In this document: positions 14,088 to 24,565 of the stretch, one piece after another
How positions within the stretch are numbered: position 1 is the first letter of the stretch
Layout of the letters: each line of letters begins with the position of its first letter
Assembly (NCBI GenBank): GCA_020725195.1
Contig: DYFL01000004.1
Location: forward strand, 1-64,000
Source: Hydrogenophilus sp.
GTDB lineage: Bacteria; Pseudomonadota; Gammaproteobacteria; Burkholderiales; Thiobacillaceae
Length of the DNA: 64,000 nt
Reading direction: 5' to 3'
Program-made: the position numbers and the translations under genes
The notes under the pieces: model-generated
Database searches by the model: none
Seen by the model: the letters and a program-made list of their open reading frames with translations, nothing else
What the model was told of the DNA's origin: nothing

Positions 14088-14553
14088 CCGCCTTAACAGG
14101 CTCCTCGCGCTCGACGCGCGCCTCGGGAAGGACCCCGCGGCGGCGGCCTGTCTCCACGAGCCGGACGTCGCGCCGCTTCTCGGGGCAGACCCGCGGCGCG
14201 AGGGCATCGTGCCGGGGAACGGGCCGCCTCCTCCGGGCGGACAGCGCACAGGCCCGGCTCCCCCGTCCCGCCGTGCGCCGAAACCCGGGTGCCGGATCCG
14301 GGGCACGGACCCCGGCCTCCCCCCGTGAGGGGCCGGGTCCACGGCCTGGTCGGTATATCCATAGGCTTAGGACGAATGTTATAAGCCATTGAATATCAAT
14401 TAAATTGACAATTGCGTCGGCGAGCTTTCCTCTATATTGAGGGTCACGCGGGCGGACGAGCACGAACGACAAGCCCCGCATACCAATAGAACGCCCGAGT
14501 CCGGCCCGCGATGGCACGGCAGGACATCGGGCGTCGGCACCGGAGGTCTGCAA
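14088..14553. other. Intergenic region upstream of the sigma-54 regulator
   Basis: No gene was recognised. The left part is very GC-rich with imperfect inverted repeats around 14309-14341. At 14370-14440 it becomes AT-rich and contains TTGACA (14405-14410) and TATATT (14433-14438), but the 22-base spacing is too long for a standard sigma-70 promoter. The regulator promoter probably lies here without being clearly definable. Confidence 0.4.
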
Positions 14554-15882
<1,329 letters not shown>

Positions 15883-16219: not shown

Positions 16220-16582
16220 ATGAGAACGCATACCGAGTTTGTCCGGCCGGCCGGCCCGGGGAAGGGGGATCCCGGACGGCTTTCCTGGGTGGCCTGGCTG
16301 ACCCTGCTGCTGATCGCGTCGCCGGCGGTGGCCGATCCCGGTGCGGACGCCGCCTTTCAGCCGCAGGTGTTCAGGGCGGCGGCCATGTCCGCCGTGGCTG
16401 AGGCGAGCGATGGCGAGCTGCAGGGTGTGCAGGCCAAGGGCATAGAACAACAAACGCTCCGAGCCAGCGAGAACGTGGCGGTGATCCTCTGGGACGAGCC
16501 CGATACGGGCCGCCGGACCGGACTGCCCAAGAACGACGGCAACACCCTGGTCACGATCCGCTACACCGGGCCTGCCAGGTGA
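16220..16582 (+). CDS. Small exported protein, first gene of the Fap operon
   Basis: A 120-residue protein that I do not recognise. Residues 21-38 form a hydrophobic signal segment ending in SPAVA-D, after a rather long basic/polar N-terminus, so export to the periplasm is likely. The mature part contains ASDGELQGVQAKG at 62-74, a motif resembling ones in other proteins of this locus, and ends in the beta-prone segment NTLVTIRYTG. The start at 16220 follows GGGTGAG by seven bases and lies downstream of the predicted sigma-54 transcription start. It has no counterpart in the canonical fapABCDEF order. It could be an additional Fap assembly factor; this is inferred only from position. Confidence 0.7.
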   Translation: MRTHTEFVRPAGPGKGDPGRLSWVAWLTLLLIASPAVADPGADAAFQPQVFRAAAMSAVAEASDGELQGVQAKGIEQQTLRASENVAVILWDEPDTGRRTGLPKNDGNTLVTIRYTGPAR

Positions 16583-16598
16583 CAAGGAGACGACAGCC

Positions 16599-17078
16599 AT
16601 GAAGACCCTCCTCGGCCTCGCCGCCGCATCGCTCCTCGCCAGCCCCGGCCCCGCCGCGGCGGGGGAGGGCGAGATCGTCCTCCTGCGCGAGGTCCCGCCC
16701 CGCATCGCCTACCGCGAGGCGCCCCCCGGCCCGGTGATCAGCAAGGCGAACGCCTCGCCCAGGGACCAGGTCCTCGGCTCGCTGGGCGAGGCCGGGATCG
16801 GCCGCGAACTCACCGACGAGGAGTTCGCCCAGGTCGGGGTGGGCAAGCCGGTGGCGGGCGGCAACGGCCCGGTTGGTGCCGTGCCGGCCACCCTGGGATC
16901 GGCCGGGATCGGGGGCGGCGGCGCAGGCCAGGCGCCGGGGGGGGTGACCGGTGTGCTCGGCGGCATGAACACCCTGATCGGCGGCGCCGGCGGGGGCGCG
17001 GTCGGCCGCGCCACCCAGGACCTCGGCAAGAACATCGGCGGCATGCTCGGCAGCCTGCCCGCGGGAGCGACGAAATGA
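16599..17078 (+). CDS. fapA: FapA-position secreted protein of the amyloid operon
   Basis: A 159-residue protein with a clear signal peptide (residues 1-21, ending PAAA-G). The mature chain is Gly/Ala-rich and low in complexity after about residue 83. It has a RELTDEEFAQVGVG segment at 69-82 and a repeated GS(L/A)G(E/S)AGIG motif (60-68 and again near 100). It sits where FapA, a periplasmic regulator of amyloid composition, lies in Pseudomonas, immediately before the FapB-like gene, which it overlaps by ATGA. Sequence similarity to FapA itself was not verifiable by eye; the name rests on synteny, length and export. Confidence 0.55.
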   Translation: MKTLLGLAAASLLASPGPAAAGEGEIVLLREVPPRIAYREAPPGPVISKANASPRDQVLGSLGEAGIGRELTDEEFAQVGVGKPVAGGNGPVGAVPATLGSAGIGGGGAGQAPGGVTGVLGGMNTLIGGAGGGAVGRATQDLGKNIGGMLGSLPAGATK

Positions 17079-17683
17079 ACGCCATGACCCTCTGCACGCC
17101 CGGCCTGGCCCTCGCCCTGCTGCTTGCGGCCCTGGCCGCCCAGGCCGACGGCATCGGCTACGTCACCGTCAGCGAGATCGACGGCAACGTGGCGAGCCAG
17201 GCAACGGGGCGCATCGCCGTCAACCAGGCGGCGGGAGACGCCAACCTGCAGGCCAACGCCGCGGCCGTCGCCGTCTCGTCCCAGGCCGCCTCGGCCTCGG
17301 TCGGGATCGAGCAGAAGATCCACGGATTCAGCGGGACCGCGCCCGGCGTGGCCGTCGCCCGCATCGGCCAGAACGCCTTCGCCGGCGCGTCGGGCCTCAT
17401 CGCCGTCAACCAGGCGAGCGGTGCGGCCAACGCCCAGTCGAACAGCGTGGCGGTCGCAATGGGCATCAAGGGGGAGGTGGGGGACGAGGCCCTGTCCGCC
17501 GCCACCCCCGATGCGGTAGGACTGGTTCGCGCTGGCGCATCGCCCGGCCTGAGGATCGTGGGTGTCGACGACACCGCGTTCCGCGGCGCCCGGGGGGTGG
17601 TCCAGCTCAACCAGACGGCGGGGGCGGGCAACAGCTCCTCCAACAGCTTCGCGCTGCGCGTCAGCGTGCAGCCGGACTTGTAA
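17075..17683 (+). CDS. fapB: FapB-like minor amyloid subunit
   Basis: A 202-residue secreted protein with a signal peptide at 1-24. The mature chain is three imperfect amyloid-type repeats separated by linkers, each built around IAVNQAAGxxNxQxN: GRIAVNQAAGDANLQAN, GLIAVNQASGAANAQSN and GVVQLNQTAGAGNSSSN. The three-repeat layout and its position before the larger repeat protein match FapB, the proposed nucleator of Fap fibrils. The repeats are more divergent from one another than those of the next gene, as is usual for FapB relative to FapC. It overlaps the upstream gene by 4 bases, so translation is coupled. It has no cysteine. Confidence 0.75.
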   Translation: MNAMTLCTPGLALALLLAALAAQADGIGYVTVSEIDGNVASQATGRIAVNQAAGDANLQANAAAVAVSSQAASASVGIEQKIHGFSGTAPGVAVARIGQNAFAGASGLIAVNQASGAANAQSNSVAVAMGIKGEVGDEALSAATPDAVGLVRAGASPGLRIVGVDDTAFRGARGVVQLNQTAGAGNSSSNSFALRVSVQPDL

Positions 17684-17713
17684 AACACTCAACCCAAGGT
17701 AAGGAGAACAGCC

Positions 17714-19021
17714 ATGAAAACCATGTATCAAACTCCCATCGCGCTGGCCGTGGCGGCCCTGTTCGTAACGCCGCTGGCCTTCGCAAACGATCGCGGCCAT
17801 GACCGCGACAAAGAAGGGGCGACCCTGGTCAAGAAGGTCAAGGTCGAGAAGGATGTCAAGTTCAAAGGCACCGTGGATATCGACGGCTACATCTGGGTCG
17901 ATTCCAGCGCCATGTCGGTGGTCGACGACGAGCAGGTGACCATGGGCAACACCAACTTCTTCGTCGAAGATACCGAGAACGGCCCCGTGCTGCACCTGAG
18001 CAAGCTGCACACCAACTCGGCGAGCGCGGCGGACGACGCCCTGCAGGGCGCCAACGGCAACATCGGCCTGAACATCGTCGCCGGCGACAACAACCAGCAG
18101 GCCAACGTCGCGGCCCTGTCCGCGGCCGACGCCGGCTTCGTGTTCGGCTCCGCGGATGCCGAGGTCTTCGCCAAGCAGCTGGCCATGGCCAACACCATCA
18201 TCAACCACGGCGGGACCAACACCGCCTCCCTCGGCGGCAACGTCCTGCAGGGCGCCAGCGGCAACATCGGGGTGAACATCGCCGCCGGCAACAGCAACCA
18301 GCAGAAGAACGACCTCGCCGCGTCCGTCGCCGTGTCGAGGCTGGCCGAGGCCAGCGTGGCGGTCAAGCAGATGAACGGCGGCAACGTCACCGTGAACGCG
18401 CCGGCCCTGAAGCCGACCGAGATCACGGAAACCGGCGTGGCCCAGATCGCGCTGAGCGGCACCTACTGGGGCGGGGGTTCGGGTGGCTATAGCGGCACGC
18501 AGGGCGGCAGCTATTCGGGGACGCACAGCGGCACGAGCTCGGGCAACTCCTACCAGATGACCAACCTGTATTCCGACCTCTGGTCCAACGACCCGGGCGA
18601 CAGCCCCGTCCATCCCACCAACAACCCCGGTCCGATCGGCCATGCCGACTTCGACACCGCCACGCAAGGCGCGGTGCAGAACCCGAGCCGTCCCGGCGTG
18701 GGTGGTTTCGGCTTCGACAACACCGGCAGCTACAGCGGCACCCAGGGCGGCAGCTACAGCGGCACCCATAGCGGTGGCTTGGGCTTCGTCGAGGTGGGCA
18801 GCATGGTGCTTGGCGGCACCGCGACCTACACTTTCACCCGCTGGGTGGACATGCCGGTCATGACCGCCAACACCGCCAGCCTGAGCGGCAGCGCGCTGCA
18901 GGGCGCCAGCGGCAACATCGGCGTCAACATCGCCGCCGGCACCAACAACCAGCAGTACAACGGCCTGGCGATGGCCGTGTCGCAAGCCCCGCGCAACGGC
19001 GGCGGCACTCCTGGCGAATAA
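17714..19021 (+). CDS. fapC: FapC-like major functional amyloid subunit
   Basis: A 435-residue secreted protein with a signal peptide at 1-24 and a Lys/Asp-rich N-terminal region. Three highly similar amyloid repeats lie at about 100-136, 168-204 and 385-421, each with LQGASGNIGVNIAAG and NNQQ. The linker between repeats 2 and 3 is long (about 180 residues) and contains two near-identical Tyr/Ser/Gly blocks (SYSGTQGGSYSGTHSG at about 257-273 and 338-354). Family knowledge: FapC is the main fibril subunit of Pseudomonas biofilm amyloid. The start has AAGGAG at ideal spacing. Unlike Pseudomonas FapC, no C-terminal CxxC is present; the chain ends PRNGGGTPGE. Confidence 0.82.
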   Translation: MKTMYQTPIALAVAALFVTPLAFANDRGHDRDKEGATLVKKVKVEKDVKFKGTVDIDGYIWVDSSAMSVVDDEQVTMGNTNFFVEDTENGPVLHLSKLHTNSASAADDALQGANGNIGLNIVAGDNNQQANVAALSAADAGFVFGSADAEVFAKQLAMANTIINHGGTNTASLGGNVLQGASGNIGVNIAAGNSNQQKNDLAASVAVSRLAEASVAVKQMNGGNVTVNAPALKPTEITETGVAQIALSGTYWGGGSGGYSGTQGGSYSGTHSGTSSGNSYQMTNLYSDLWSNDPGDSPVHPTNNPGPIGHADFDTATQGAVQNPSRPGVGGFGFDNTGSYSGTQGGSYSGTHSGGLGFVEVGSMVLGGTATYTFTRWVDMPVMTANTASLSGSALQGASGNIGVNIAAGTNNQQYNGLAMAVSQAPRNGGGTPGE

Positions 19022-19058
19022 GCCGGGCTGAGCCGAGGGCGGCCTGTTGCAGCCGCCG

Positions 19059-19092
19059 ACCGGTCCCCGGCCACAAGCCGGGGACCGGTTTT
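19059..19092 (+). terminator. Hairpin terminator/attenuator after fapC
   Basis: A perfect 13-base stem, ACCGGTCCCCGGC / GCCGGGGACCGGT, with a 5-base loop is followed by TTTT. It lies between the major subunit gene and the secretion genes, so partial termination would keep subunit mRNA in excess over the export machinery. Confidence 0.75.
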
Positions 19093-19120
19093 ACCACTTG
19101 TATGCTGGGGGGAAGCGGAC

Positions 19121-19840
19121 ATGACACTACGCCTACGCAAGACGCTGGCAGCCCTGGCGGGGTTCCTCGCCCTGTCTTCCGCGGCCTGGCTGCCTCTGCC
19201 CACTGACGCGGCGGACGTCCGGTTCGCCAACGTGCTGCCGGGCGGCGGCACGATCAGCAAGAACGTGGTCAGCATGCGCGAGCGGCGCTATGTCAACATG
19301 GTCCCGCAGCATACCGACTTCAGCTGCGGCGCGGCGGCCGTCGCCACCATCCTCAAGTACGGCTATGGCCGGGACGTCACCGAACACGAGGTGATCGAGG
19401 GCCTGCTCGAGGTGTCCGACCCGGAGGTGGTGCGGGTCAAGGGCTTCTCGCTGCTGGACATCAAGAACTACGTACAGACCCTGGGCATGCGCGCCCGGGG
19501 CTACAAGATCGCGCCCGAGATGCTGGAGAGCGTCAAGGTGCCCACCATCGCCCTCGTGGACATGAAGGGCTACAAGCATTTCGTCGTGGTCAACAAGACC
19601 GTCGGCGACAAGGTCTACATCGCCGATCCGGCCCTCGGCAACCGGATCGTGCCCAAGGAACAGTTCGTCAAGGAATGGAACGGCCTGGTGTTCGCGGTGA
19701 TCGGCCAAGGCTTCGATCGCGACACCGTGCTGCTGACTCCGCCGCGGCCGCTGACGGCGCGCGGGCTGGTGGACACCTTCCGGCCCCTGACGGACACGGA
19801 ACTGCTGGACTTCGGCTTCACCCATGCGGACCTGTTCTGA
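19121..19840 (+). CDS. fapD: C39-family periplasmic peptidase, FapD-like
   Basis: A 239-residue protein with an N-terminal signal sequence (about 1-30) and a papain-like C39 peptidase domain. The catalytic residues are visible: Cys in DFSCGAAAVATIL, His in GYKHFVVV and Asp in YIADPALG. Family knowledge: FapD is required for Fap amyloid secretion, and C39 enzymes usually cleave after double-glycine leaders. There is no ABC transporter domain, so this is a stand-alone peptidase. The C-terminal tail LTDTELLDFGF contains the same Thr-Asp-x-Glu-Leu pattern seen in other proteins of this locus. It lies 99 bases after fapC, beyond a hairpin. Confidence 0.88.
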   Translation: MTLRLRKTLAALAGFLALSSAAWLPLPTDAADVRFANVLPGGGTISKNVVSMRERRYVNMVPQHTDFSCGAAAVATILKYGYGRDVTEHEVIEGLLEVSDPEVVRVKGFSLLDIKNYVQTLGMRARGYKIAPEMLESVKVPTIALVDMKGYKHFVVVNKTVGDKVYIADPALGNRIVPKEQFVKEWNGLVFAVIGQGFDRDTVLLTPPRPLTARGLVDTFRPLTDTELLDFGFTHADLF

Positions 19841-19914
19841 CGCCGCCGGATGCCCGAAGCCAATCACAGGGCCCGGCCGCAAGCAGGCGGGGCCCCGAAA
19901 TGGAGGTATGGATC

Positions 19915-20709
19915 ATGAACGGAAACATCGCGGTACTGAAGGCGGCCGTGAAGAAGCTGGCCCTGGCCTTGGGCGGCACCCTGCTCGCGCTGCCGCAGGC
20001 GGCGCTCCCGGCCCTCTTCGTCGAGGCCACGGATGCGGAGCTAGGCGCCATGCGCGGCCGCTACGCGCCCGGCAACAGCCAGGTCGTCTATTTCGGCGTG
20101 GAGATGGTCACGAGCTGGGAAAACCCGAACGGCAAGGTCGTCGACGCCGGCCTGAAGCTGGGCGTCGACCACAAGCTGCAGCCCACCGTCACCGTCGTCA
20201 ACCGGGCGCACCCGCCCCAGGGCGGCCCCGATGCGGGGCAGGCCGCCAGCGGCAACACGGTGTTGATCAGCAGCGGCGGCATCACGCAGGTAGAGGGCGT
20301 CGCCCAGAGCATCCAGATCGGGGGCGACGGCAACGCGGTGCAGAACGACATCGCCATGGACCTCACGCTCGTGCAGGGCGATGCGCCGGTGCCGGCTGGC
20401 GGCGGCGTGCAGGTCACCGGCGCCGGTAGCCAGGCCTTCAACAACGCCAACGGCTCCGTCACCACGGTGAGCGTGGACGACAAGGGCCTGGGCCTCTCGG
20501 TGTACGTCCCCGGTCAGGGGCAGGTGGTCCAGCAGCTGCGCAGCGGTGCCGGCCTGTTCCAGGGCGCCATGGTCGGCGGCGACATGAACCGGATCCACAA
20601 CACGATCCACATCCAGGCCACCCTGCGCCAGGCCGCCGGCCTGAACCAGGCCAGCGTGCGCGCCGCGCTCGACAGCCTGAGGGGGGTGCGTCAGGCGGGG
20701 CAGTTCTAG
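19915..20709 (+). CDS. fapE: FapE-position extracellular/periplasmic protein
   Basis: A 264-residue protein with a signal peptide (to about residue 33, ALPALF). The start at 19915 is chosen because GGAGG lies eight bases upstream. Right after the signal comes ATDAELGAMRGRYAPG, then a mostly beta-rich, Gly/Gln/Asn-containing chain with short repeats such as NDIAMDLTL and NTIHIQATL, and AFNNANGSVTTVSV. No enzymatic motif was recognised. Its position between the C39 peptidase and the outer-membrane barrel corresponds to FapE, a minor fibril-associated component in Pseudomonas. The assignment rests mainly on gene order. Confidence 0.62.
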   Translation: MNGNIAVLKAAVKKLALALGGTLLALPQAALPALFVEATDAELGAMRGRYAPGNSQVVYFGVEMVTSWENPNGKVVDAGLKLGVDHKLQPTVTVVNRAHPPQGGPDAGQAASGNTVLISSGGITQVEGVAQSIQIGGDGNAVQNDIAMDLTLVQGDAPVPAGGGVQVTGAGSQAFNNANGSVTTVSVDDKGLGLSVYVPGQGQVVQQLRSGAGLFQGAMVGGDMNRIHNTIHIQATLRQAAGLNQASVRAALDSLRGVRQAGQF

Positions 20710-20858: not shown

Positions 20859-22133
20859 ATGCGGAGGCTCATCCCCCATCTTTTGGTCTTGCCCGTCGTC
20901 GCCCTGCCCCTGGCCGTCCAGGCCGCGGAGCCCACGGTCGAGGAACTGAACCGGCGGCTCGCCGAACTGCAGCAGCGCTACGAGGCCCAGAACGGCGCGC
21001 TGCAGGTCATGGAGGCGCGCCTGCGGCAGCTGGAGGCGTCCCTGCAGGCCTCGGGCACGGCGCAGCCGGCCCGGCTCCTTAAGGCGTCCTATCCGACCCA
21101 GCTGGCGGCCGCCGACCAGCCGGTCGGCGCCGCTGCCTCAGCGGCTCCGGAAGAGAAGGTGGTCCGAGAGGCACCCGCCTCGCGCAGCGCCGAGGCGGTG
21201 TACCAGGAGCAGCACGCCCTGTTCGACCGCAAATTCACCCTGGAGGCGGGGCTCACCTACAGCCGCTCCGACCGTCGCCAGCTCACCCTCAACGGCTTCC
21301 TGGCCCTGGACGCGATCTTCCTGGGCAATATCAGCGTCGACGAGGTCAAGGCCGACATCCTGACCCTGGACCTCACCGGCCGCTACACCCTGTCCGACCG
21401 CATGCAGATGGACCTGAACCTGCCCTTCCTGTACCGCTCCACGACCTACCAGTCGGGCGGGGCGGGCGGCGCCAGCACCGATCTGATCGAGCACGACGTC
21501 ACCCTGGGTCCCGAGCTCGGCGACGTCAGCGCCGGGGTCTACTACCAGCTCTTCAAGGAGGCCGCCAGCCGCCCGGACGTGGTCTGGAACGTGCGGGTGA
21601 AGGCGCCCACCGGCAGCGATCCCTATGGCGTGGAGATCATCGAGGTGCCGGGCTCCAGCGGCAATCTCAGGGTGCCGAGGAAGCTGCCCAGCGGCAACGG
21701 CGTCTGGGCCCTGTCCACGGGGCTTTCCTTCGTCAAGACCCTGGACCCCGCGATCCTGTTCGCCAACGTCGGCTATTTCTACAACTTCGAGGGTGATTTC
21801 GGCGACATCGACTCGCGTCCGGACACGGTGACACCCGGAAGCGTCAAGCTGGGCGACTCCTTCCAGTACGGCCTGGGCACGGCCTTCGCCCTGAACGAGC
21901 GCATGAGCCTGAGCCTGTCCTACAGCCAGCGCTTCACCGCCAAGTCCAAGACCAAGCGGGCCGGCGAAGGCTGGCAGAGCATCGTCGGCAGCGACGCCAA
22001 CGCCGCCAGCCTGAACTTCGGCGTGACCTACGCCCTGGCCGAGCGGGATGCCCTGGTGTTCAACGTGGGATCGGGGCTCACCCCGGATGCGCCGGATGTC
22101 ACTGTGGGTGCGAAGTACGTGACCACCTTCTGA
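20859..22133 (+). CDS. fapF: FapF-like outer-membrane barrel for amyloid export
   Basis: A 424-residue outer-membrane protein. It has a signal peptide (1-22), a coiled coil at about 24-65 (VEELNRRLAELQQRYEAQNG), a Pro/Ala-rich linker, and a beta-barrel from about 120 ending in an aromatic C-terminal residue (KYVTTF), the usual BAM signal. This order matches Pseudomonas FapF, a trimeric barrel plugged by an N-terminal coiled coil that exports FapB and FapC. The start at 20859 has AAAGGA at good spacing. It is the last gene of the operon and is followed by a strong terminator. Confidence 0.8.
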   Translation: MRRLIPHLLVLPVVALPLAVQAAEPTVEELNRRLAELQQRYEAQNGALQVMEARLRQLEASLQASGTAQPARLLKASYPTQLAAADQPVGAAASAAPEEKVVREAPASRSAEAVYQEQHALFDRKFTLEAGLTYSRSDRRQLTLNGFLALDAIFLGNISVDEVKADILTLDLTGRYTLSDRMQMDLNLPFLYRSTTYQSGGAGGASTDLIEHDVTLGPELGDVSAGVYYQLFKEAASRPDVVWNVRVKAPTGSDPYGVEIIEVPGSSGNLRVPRKLPSGNGVWALSTGLSFVKTLDPAILFANVGYFYNFEGDFGDIDSRPDTVTPGSVKLGDSFQYGLGTAFALNERMSLSLSYSQRFTAKSKTKRAGEGWQSIVGSDANAASLNFGVTYALAERDALVFNVGSGLTPDAPDVTVGAKYVTTF

Positions 22134-22794: not shown

Positions 22795-23358
22795 TCAGGC
22801 CTTGACCCGGTTGCGGTATTCGCCGGTGGCGGTGTCGATTTCGATCTTGTCGCCGATTTCCACGAATGCGGGCACGGAGATCTCCATGCCGGTGGGCTTG
22901 ATGCGGGCCGGCTTCATGACCTTGCCGGAGGTGTCGCCCTTGACGGCGGGCTCGGTGTACTCCACCTCGCGCACCACCGAGGAGGGCAGCGCCACGGAGA
23001 TGGCCTTGCCGTTGTAGAACACCACCTCGACGGGCAGGCCGTCCTCGAGGTATTTCAGGGCGTCCTCCATGTTCTCGGCCTCGACCTCGTACTGGTTGTA
23101 TTCCGAGTCCATGAACACGTACATGGGGTCGGCGAAGTAGGAATAGGTGCATTCCTTGCGCTCGAGCACCACGACCTCGAACTTCTCGTCGGCCTTGTAG
23201 ACGGTCTCGCTGCCGGAACCGGTCAGGAGGTTCTTCATCTTCATCTTGACCACGGAGGCGTTGCGGCCGGATTTGCTGAACTCGGCCTTCTGCACGACCA
23301 TGGGGTCCTTGCCCACCATGATCACGTTGCCCGCGCGGATTTCCTGTGCTGTCTTCAT
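22795..23358 (-). CDS. efp: Elongation factor P
   Basis: A 187-residue translation factor that rescues ribosomes stalled at polyproline. It has three beta-barrel (KOW, OB, S1-like) domains and the usual family length. The modification loop reads SKSGRNASV with Arg at position 32, the form rhamnosylated by EarP rather than the lysine form modified by EpmA. earP lies immediately upstream on the same strand. AGGA precedes the ATG at suitable distance, and a TATAAT-like box in the 37-base gap may give efp its own promoter. Confidence 0.97.
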
Positions 23359-23395: not shown

Positions 23396-24565
23396 TTATA
23401 ACTTTTCCCTGCAAAAAAGCATCAGCTTCGTGGCCAGGTCGACTTGTTTCGCGAGCCCCTCGGCCCAGGCGCGGGCATGGTGCCCGAGCGCGTCGAGGCG
23501 GGACGCCAGCGGCGGCCACGCCGCGGCAAGGCCGTCTCCCCGGTTCCAGGCGCGGGTGAAACCGCGGTAGGCGGCCGCCGTCCCGGCGTCCAGGCCGGCG
23601 CCGTAGAGGTCCAGGAAGGCCTCCAGTTTGGCCCAGTGGGCGCCGTCCTCCTGGACGTAGATCTGCCAGACGAGAGGCCGCGCCGCCCATTGGGCGCGGA
23701 CGAAGGAGTCCTCGCCACGCACGAGATTGAGGTCGCAGGCCCAGAGCAGGCGGTCATAGACGTCCTGGTCGAGGAAGGGGACGACATGCACCTCCAGGCC
23801 GCCGCGGCCGAGGCTGGCCCCCGGCGCCAGGTCGGTGCGGCCGAAAAACCCGGCTACGCGCCTGACCGGCAGGCCCTCGGGCACGATGCAGACGGTCCTG
23901 CCGGGCCCCGCGGCCCAGGCATCGAGCAGCTGCGGGATGCCGGGGTTGTCGTAGGCGAAGAGCGAGACCCGCCGCTCGCCGGGCCGGGGCAGCGGCAGGC
24001 CCAGGGAGCGCCAGAGGCGCCCCACGGCCTCCGGCGAGGCCTGGAAGGCCGCGCGCTGCGCGAGCAGGCCGGCCTCGCGCAGCAGGCCGCCGGTGCCTGC
24101 GCCGAAGCCGGGGAAGAAGAAGTGCGCGGTGAGCGGCAGGCGCGGGTGCGGCGAGGGCAGGGCGTGGCAGCCTTGGACCCAGGCCTCGGCGCTGAGGTGG
24201 TCGAGGTTGATCCACAGCGGCCCGGGCGCCCGGGCGGCCATGGCCGCGAGGTAGTTCTCGGGCAGGTCGCAGGCGAAGGTCTCGATGACGATCTCGGCGG
24301 GCTCGGCCTCGGGGAAGGGCTTGCCCCAGTGCCTGACCTCCACGCCCTGGACGGTCTGGATCCCGAGCCGCGCATCGGCCTCGGGGCGCAGCCTGCGGAA
24401 GCTGGCCAGGTCGTCGACCCACAGCCGCACGCGCAGGCCCTGCTCGCGCGCCAGTTGCCGCGCGAGCCGCCAGGCGACGCCGATGTCGCCGTAGTTGTCG
24501 ACGATGTTGCAGAACACGTCGCAGCGGCGGCCTCGCAGCGGGGGCAAGGCGGCGGTTCCGGGCAT
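23396..24565 (-). CDS. earP: EF-P arginine rhamnosyltransferase
   Basis: A 389-residue inverting glycosyltransferase (GT-B fold) that transfers rhamnose from dTDP-rhamnose to Arg32 of EF-P. Recognisable features are the N-terminal [20 protein letters not shown] containing the catalytic Asp, and [12 protein letters not shown] in the C-terminal nucleotide-sugar domain. It lies directly upstream of efp, which encodes the Arg32 substrate form. A 24-base gap separates it from the histidine kinase gene before it on the same strand. Confidence 0.95.

Follow-up and report, generated by a model that had tools for sequence, protein, structure and literature searches.

Background

In Pseudomonas, the fapABCDEF operon includes FapD, an exported C39 peptidase that was shown to be located in the periplasm and whose active-site Cys is required for the secretion of FapC (PMC5557850). 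The target of FapD and its recognition sequence were still not known in 2017 (PMC5557850), and a 2025 review goes no further than to name FapE and FapF as presumed substrates of FapD (PMC12822426). FapE is the only Fap protein with complete N-terminal processing, and the published data contain no peptides across its first ~70 residues; FapA, FapB, FapC and FapD looked unprocessed, and mass spectrometry saw no processing of FapA (PMC5557850). The published surveys describe fapABCDEF or fapBCDEF gene sets only (PMC12822426). In ABC exporters, the C39 domain recognises the leader in a surface groove, through L(-12)xxxE(-8)L(-7) and a hydrophobic residue at -4, and its cleavage site lies behind GG, GA or GS (PMC6959990, PMC6363468). 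Here we report sequence comparisons that partly support a periplasmic role, following Sec export, for a leader of this double-glycine type: the case is strong for FapE, good for the family of an additional gene of the locus (gene 1), and restricted to recognition for FapA.

The fap operon and its surroundings

The DNA analysed is a stretch of 64,000 nucleotides from Hydrogenophilus sp. (contig DYFL01000004.1), hereafter called the window. Its fap operon lies on the + strand and is matched by the NCBIfam models A to F in order, with E-values of 1.2e-11 for FapA (NF058617), 3.9e-29 for FapB, 1.2e-57 for FapC, 1.7e-89 for FapD, 4e-35 for FapE and 1.4e-149 for FapF. The genes that define a Fap system (fapB, fapC, fapD, fapE and fapF in this order, fapA being optional) are all present, but FapA, FapB, FapD, FapE and FapF score under the curated NCBIfam cut-offs and are therefore divergent members. 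The sigma-54 activator gene upstream of the operon is, from its position, a possible regulator of it (Table 1). Just beyond the operon, what we take to be an EF-P-like gene (22795-23358, minus strand) adjoins a presumed EarP-like gene (23396-24565, minus strand).

Table 1. Genes and motifs of the fap locus in the window
Feature	Position	Strand	Remarks
Sigma-54 activator, VpsR-type N-terminus	14437..15882	+	Upstream of operon
Gene 1 (P0001), small Sec-type protein, 120 aa, unnamed family	16220..16582	+	Leader-type motif, VILWDE signature
Gene 1 motif, residues 62-74, ASDGELQGVQAKG	16403..16441	+	A-12, E-8, L-7, V-4, A-2, K-1
fapA, chaperone-type	16599..17078	+	NF058617
FapA motif, residues 70-82, ELTDEEFAQVGVG	16806..16844	+	L-12, E-8, F-7, V-4, G-1; without Gly at -2
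fapB, nucleator-type subunit	17075..17683	+	NCBIfam; without motif
fapC, major amyloid subunit	17714..19021	+	NCBIfam; without motif
fapD, hydrophobic N-terminus and C39 peptidase	19121..19840	+	NCBIfam, PF03412
FapD C-terminal tail, residues 223-233, LTDTELLDFGF	19787..19819	+	Resembles recognition half; without Gly at -2/-1
fapE, best candidate FapD substrate	19915..20709	+	NCBIfam
FapE leader-type motif, residues 38-49, ATDAELGAMRGR	20026..20061	+	Positions -12 to -1
fapF, outer-membrane secretion pore	20859..22133	+	NCBIfam; without conserved motif

A leader-type motif in FapE

The original prediction held that a short motif shared by gene 1, FapA, FapE and FapD may be a recognition or processing site for FapD, and each of the four copies was found at its predicted residues (Table 1). 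In a pattern search of the seven locus proteins, [ST]D.E[LF] occurred once each in gene 1, FapA, FapD and FapE and was absent from FapB, FapC and FapF; the long reading frames elsewhere in the window (50,983 residues, shadow frames included) had no site. When the seven proteins were shuffled, the mean number of sites was 0.06, and four sites were reached in none of 20,000 trials. No description of the motif in Fap proteins was found in the literature searched, which left most subscription journals outside.

Fap loci for the orthologue comparison were collected by whole-genome searches across the class and the phylum; a scan of genome contigs yielded two relatives only. The comparison revealed a longer pattern of the C39 leader type, L(-12)xxxE(-8)L(-7)xx[hydrophobic](-4)xG(-2), of which the predicted motif forms the front half. 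Among 35 FapE proteins, Pseudomonas-type ones included, position -12 is L, V or I in 34, D(-10) is found in 29, E(-8) in 26, M, L or I(-4) in 30 and R(-3) in 33, whereas L or M at -7, G at -2 and R or K at -1 are present in all 35 and are always followed by Y or F. The recognition positions of a double-glycine leader (hydrophobic -12, Glu -8, Leu -7) are thus found in FapE, with L or M counted at -7, and at family-level rank 1 in gene 1 and FapA. The other hallmark, Gly at -2 with Gly, Ala or Ser at -1, is missing from FapE owing to its invariably basic -1 residue, but is present as RGG in the non-Fap relatives described below. The bacteriocin-type leader models of NCBIfam matched neither FapE nor gene 1 nor the RGG fragments, and FapE fragments matched the FapE model only. 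The FapE leader would therefore be one that works like a classical double-glycine leader but is not filed as one. In the window, the predicted scissile bond of FapE follows R49, the next residue being Y50. Published tryptic data are unable to reveal such an N-terminus after RG[RK], because trypsin also cuts after R and K.

C39-porin loci outside Fap

Exported FapD-like C39 peptidases with FapF-like porins were also found outside Fap loci. Directly downstream of these peptidases lies a gene for a small Sec-type protein with ..EL..[ML]RGG[FL] (24 sites); directly upstream there is often a gene for another such protein, with RGG, RGR or SGR (16 sites). Nine divergent downstream proteins have as invariant columns the start Met, RGG and the Q, N and L of a repeat, RGG being the main invariant stretch. 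A model of the downstream family gave 13 strong matches in 369 genomes, all 13 beside a FapD-like C39 peptidase, and six of its eight weak matches were the gene on the other side of the peptidase. The order of peptidase, motif protein and porin in these loci is that of fapD, fapE and fapF, and the downstream family aligned with FapE over 145 columns (profile alignment, probability 95%). The two families may have a common origin, in which case their matches are not independent.

Loci of this kind (L067, L068, L071, L072, L077-L080 and L146-L158) contain the C39 peptidase, a FapF-like porin and two small RGG-motif proteins, which bear C-terminal VIQNtGnNVlIQN-type repeats reminiscent of the Fap amyloid repeats. 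They possibly represent an unnamed secretion or amyloid system. In L160, L161 and L163, DUF6160/FilA-like proteins with a LDDSALADVTGQ-type motif are encoded upstream of another exported C39 and porin pair.

As a FapF-like porin is almost always present in the same loci, linkage does not tell peptidase and pore apart, and the motif might serve in assembly or sorting and be read by FapF or a different envelope factor instead of FapD. We consider this very unlikely in view of the position-by-position fit of the motif to the measured C39 leader consensus (-12, -8, -7, -4, -2), which was seen in the orthologue alignments of both the FapE and the gene 1 families.

A position matrix was trained solely on 40 non-Fap sites and applied to the Fap families, which it had not seen. 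The training sites had been picked for a hydrophobic -7, Gly at -2 and restricted -4 and -1 residues, so that those columns are partly set by construction. The motif was the best alignment window of the FapE family (17.9, next -5.4), of the gene 1 family (8.1 against -10.4) and of the FapA family (0.06 against -8.4), and no family-level leader-type site was found with this matrix in FapB, FapC or FapF. In single-sequence shuffle tests, 32 of 35 FapE proteins fell below 0.01 and 10 of 11 gene 1 proteins were at or below 0.05. Scores of at least 10 were reached by 27 of 29 FapE proteins; among 520 unlinked frames whose N-terminus is hydrophobic, three reached them, and one of these three is a gene 1 homologue itself. 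The motif is short and made of common residues, as a chance similarity of acidic segments would be, but the shuffled proteins, the conservation in divergent orthologues and the rarity of high-scoring background frames make this explanation extremely improbable, and for FapE and gene 1 it is refuted by the orthologue data.

Gene 1, FapA and the FapD tail

In many loci that lack fapA, homologues of gene 1 are encoded upstream of fapB; in the window and in L120 the family member stands next to fapA. Gene 1 of the window takes the place that is held in other loci by fapA or by a member of its own family. None of the homologues matched a Pfam or NCBIfam family. They have in common a leader-type motif (such as ISGRG, MRGTG or RGGAL), conserved across 11 proteins and with G at -2 in most orthologues, and a VILWDE-type signature. 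The copy in the window is degenerate and is the exception in the shuffle test (p 0.45). Members were found in the window and in L002, L050, L051, L053, L054, L056, L060, L112, L114 and L120, and also in L066, L067 and L152. Gene 1 therefore appears to be an overlooked Fap-locus family, absent from the published surveys.

Some loci have unusual arrangements. L112 contains two tandem fap sets (gene 1-B-C-D-E twice) with one common fapF. In genome G263 the Fap genes are scattered: a truncated fapD N-terminus lies beside an apparent transposase gene (L073), a truncated fapD C-terminus is followed by fapE-fapF (L052), and another B-C-D-E set is present in L053.

FapA orthologues keep E-L/M-S/T-D-x-D/E-F/Y/I-A-x-M/V, in which the columns of Glu, Asp and Phe rank with the best conserved of the family; Gly is mostly present at -1 but rarely at -2. 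The tail of FapD keeps FGF and the terminal Phe in the orthologues, D-x-E-L being found in only about half of them. With the non-Fap matrix it comes 8th of 234 windows when all positions are scored and 4th when the recognition positions are, and with a FapE matrix 2nd of 238, under the control maxima in FapB and FapF. As it also has no cleavable Gly pair, the tail is unproven as a fourth processing site. The original prediction thus stands well for FapE and fairly well for gene 1; for FapA only the recognition half is retained, and the FapD tail drops out as a processing site.

These differences between the four proteins might mean that true leaders exist in FapE and gene 1 only, the copies in FapA and FapD being look-alikes that belong to a chaperone segment and a fold-closing segment, respectively. 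The behaviour of the FapD tail is in line with this, as are the facts that single FapA proteins mostly fail to reach significance in the shuffle test and that the FapA and FapE profiles gave no convincing alignment. However, both the non-Fap-trained and the FapE matrices place the FapA motif first among the windows of its family, and its Glu, Asp and Phe columns are well conserved, so that we find this restriction somewhat doubtful; it would in any case narrow the explanation given below and not replace it.

The peptidase and a proposed mechanism

FapD of the window has a C39 domain (PF03412, 2.9e-25; PDB matches 6mpz, 3k8u and 4ry2), no transporter domain and a hydrophobic N-terminus, as a periplasmic protein might have. 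The catalytic residues Q63, C69, H153 and D169 do not vary among 34 Fap and 39 non-Fap relatives, as expected of a C39 peptidase. Near the catalytic Cys, Fap-type and RGG-type peptidases differ at T65/Y, A71/S and A81/H, and also at R126/D (window 19313-19504). It is a guess, from one clade contrast, that these differences explain the R or K at -1. The PCAT1 groove residues A55 and I59 were placed near L111 and K115 of FapD through printed alignments; the register was uncertain and nothing was drawn from it.

From the motif, its conservation, its linkage and the catalytic residues, we infer a docking step, a cleavage at a defined bond and a role in FapC export. We think it rather likely that FapD binds FapE, probably gene 1 and perhaps FapA through a periplasmic double-glycine-type leader, and cuts FapE after RG[RK]. 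FapE and probably gene 1 would be exported by Sec, and removal of the signal peptide would leave a short pro-segment, the length of which can be given only roughly since the cut sites of our crude signal-peptide site finder look too early. The new N-terminal segment would expose L/V/I(-12)..E(-8)L(-7)..M/L/I(-4)-R-G-R/K, of which a short helix might dock with residues -12, -7 and -4 in a hydrophobic groove of FapD, by analogy with cytosolic C39 domains. Cys69 of FapD would then cut after -1, the mature FapE beginning with Tyr or Phe, and this cleavage may license the export of FapC. FapA, in which the recognition half is present but G at -2 is mostly missing, might dock on FapD and perhaps remain uncut.

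The invariant catalytic residues, the essential Cys and the missing N-terminus of FapE fit this mechanism. Other observations speak against it. The ~70 peptide-free residues of FapE reach further than the motif explains and FapA, FapB, FapC and FapD looked unprocessed (PMC5557850 data), the gene 1 copy of the window is degenerate, the FapE and non-Fap matches may not be independent, and no C39 precedent was found for R or K at -1, a residue not expected in the narrow cleft that accounts for the Gly pair of characterised C39 substrates. The basic -1 residue, together with the lack of a Gly pair in FapA, would be easier to understand if FapD docked without cutting, holding FapE, gene 1 and FapA as a chaperone through the motif, much as certain type 1 exporters tether unprocessed substrates by C39-like domains that are inactive. 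The protease target would then lie elsewhere, e.g. in the FapF linker, where GG/GA had been proposed earlier (PMC5557850). Yet no conserved leader-type site was found in FapF, isolated matches occurring in the linker in L051, L117 and L118 only; all relatives keep the catalytic Gln, Cys, His and Asp without variation, the Cys is essential (PMC5557850), and the full RGG is kept at -2/-1 in related loci. Docking without cleavage is therefore an unlikely explanation, and cleavage of FapE by FapD is the one that we prefer.

Comparison with known systems

For the question of the target of FapD, the motif supplies a candidate bond, positions for mutagenesis and a test peptide, and it links a functional-amyloid system to bacteriocin-type processing. 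Two further outcomes of the analysis are a gene family of Fap loci that has no name as yet and a broader group of C39-porin secretion loci. The chances seem to us evenly balanced that a general second-leader pathway exists in the periplasm of Proteobacteria, in which a soluble C39 peptidase, its gene next to that of a FapF-type porin, would read a double-glycine-type leader in Sec-exported proteins. Fap would be one branch of it, whose peptidase has moved to cutting after a basic residue, and secretion loci with VIQNtGnNVlIQN-repeat cargo would be other branches.

The peptidase-containing ABC transporters (PCAT1/CtA, LahT, ComA) have a peptidase of the same family and the same leader positions, L-12, E-8, L-7, a hydrophobic -4 and G-2. 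In contrast to these, the Fap peptidase is separate, exported and without a transporter, the Fap leader comes after a Sec signal, and the -1 residue of FapE is R or K. FilA/FilB/FilC-type loci, with a DUF6160 protein, also combine an exported C39 peptidase, a porin neighbour and a Sec protein with a LDDSALADVTGQ-type motif, but their cargo family differs and matches are weak only (FilA 3.3e-10, under the cut-off). The Pseudomonas fapABCDEF operon has the same gene set and order as the locus described here, and Pseudomonas-type FapE and FapA orthologues bear the same motif (IELKDAEMAELRGRY and ELSDSDFAGVTSG, respectively); the window differs from it by an extra first gene, the family of which replaces FapA in many loci.
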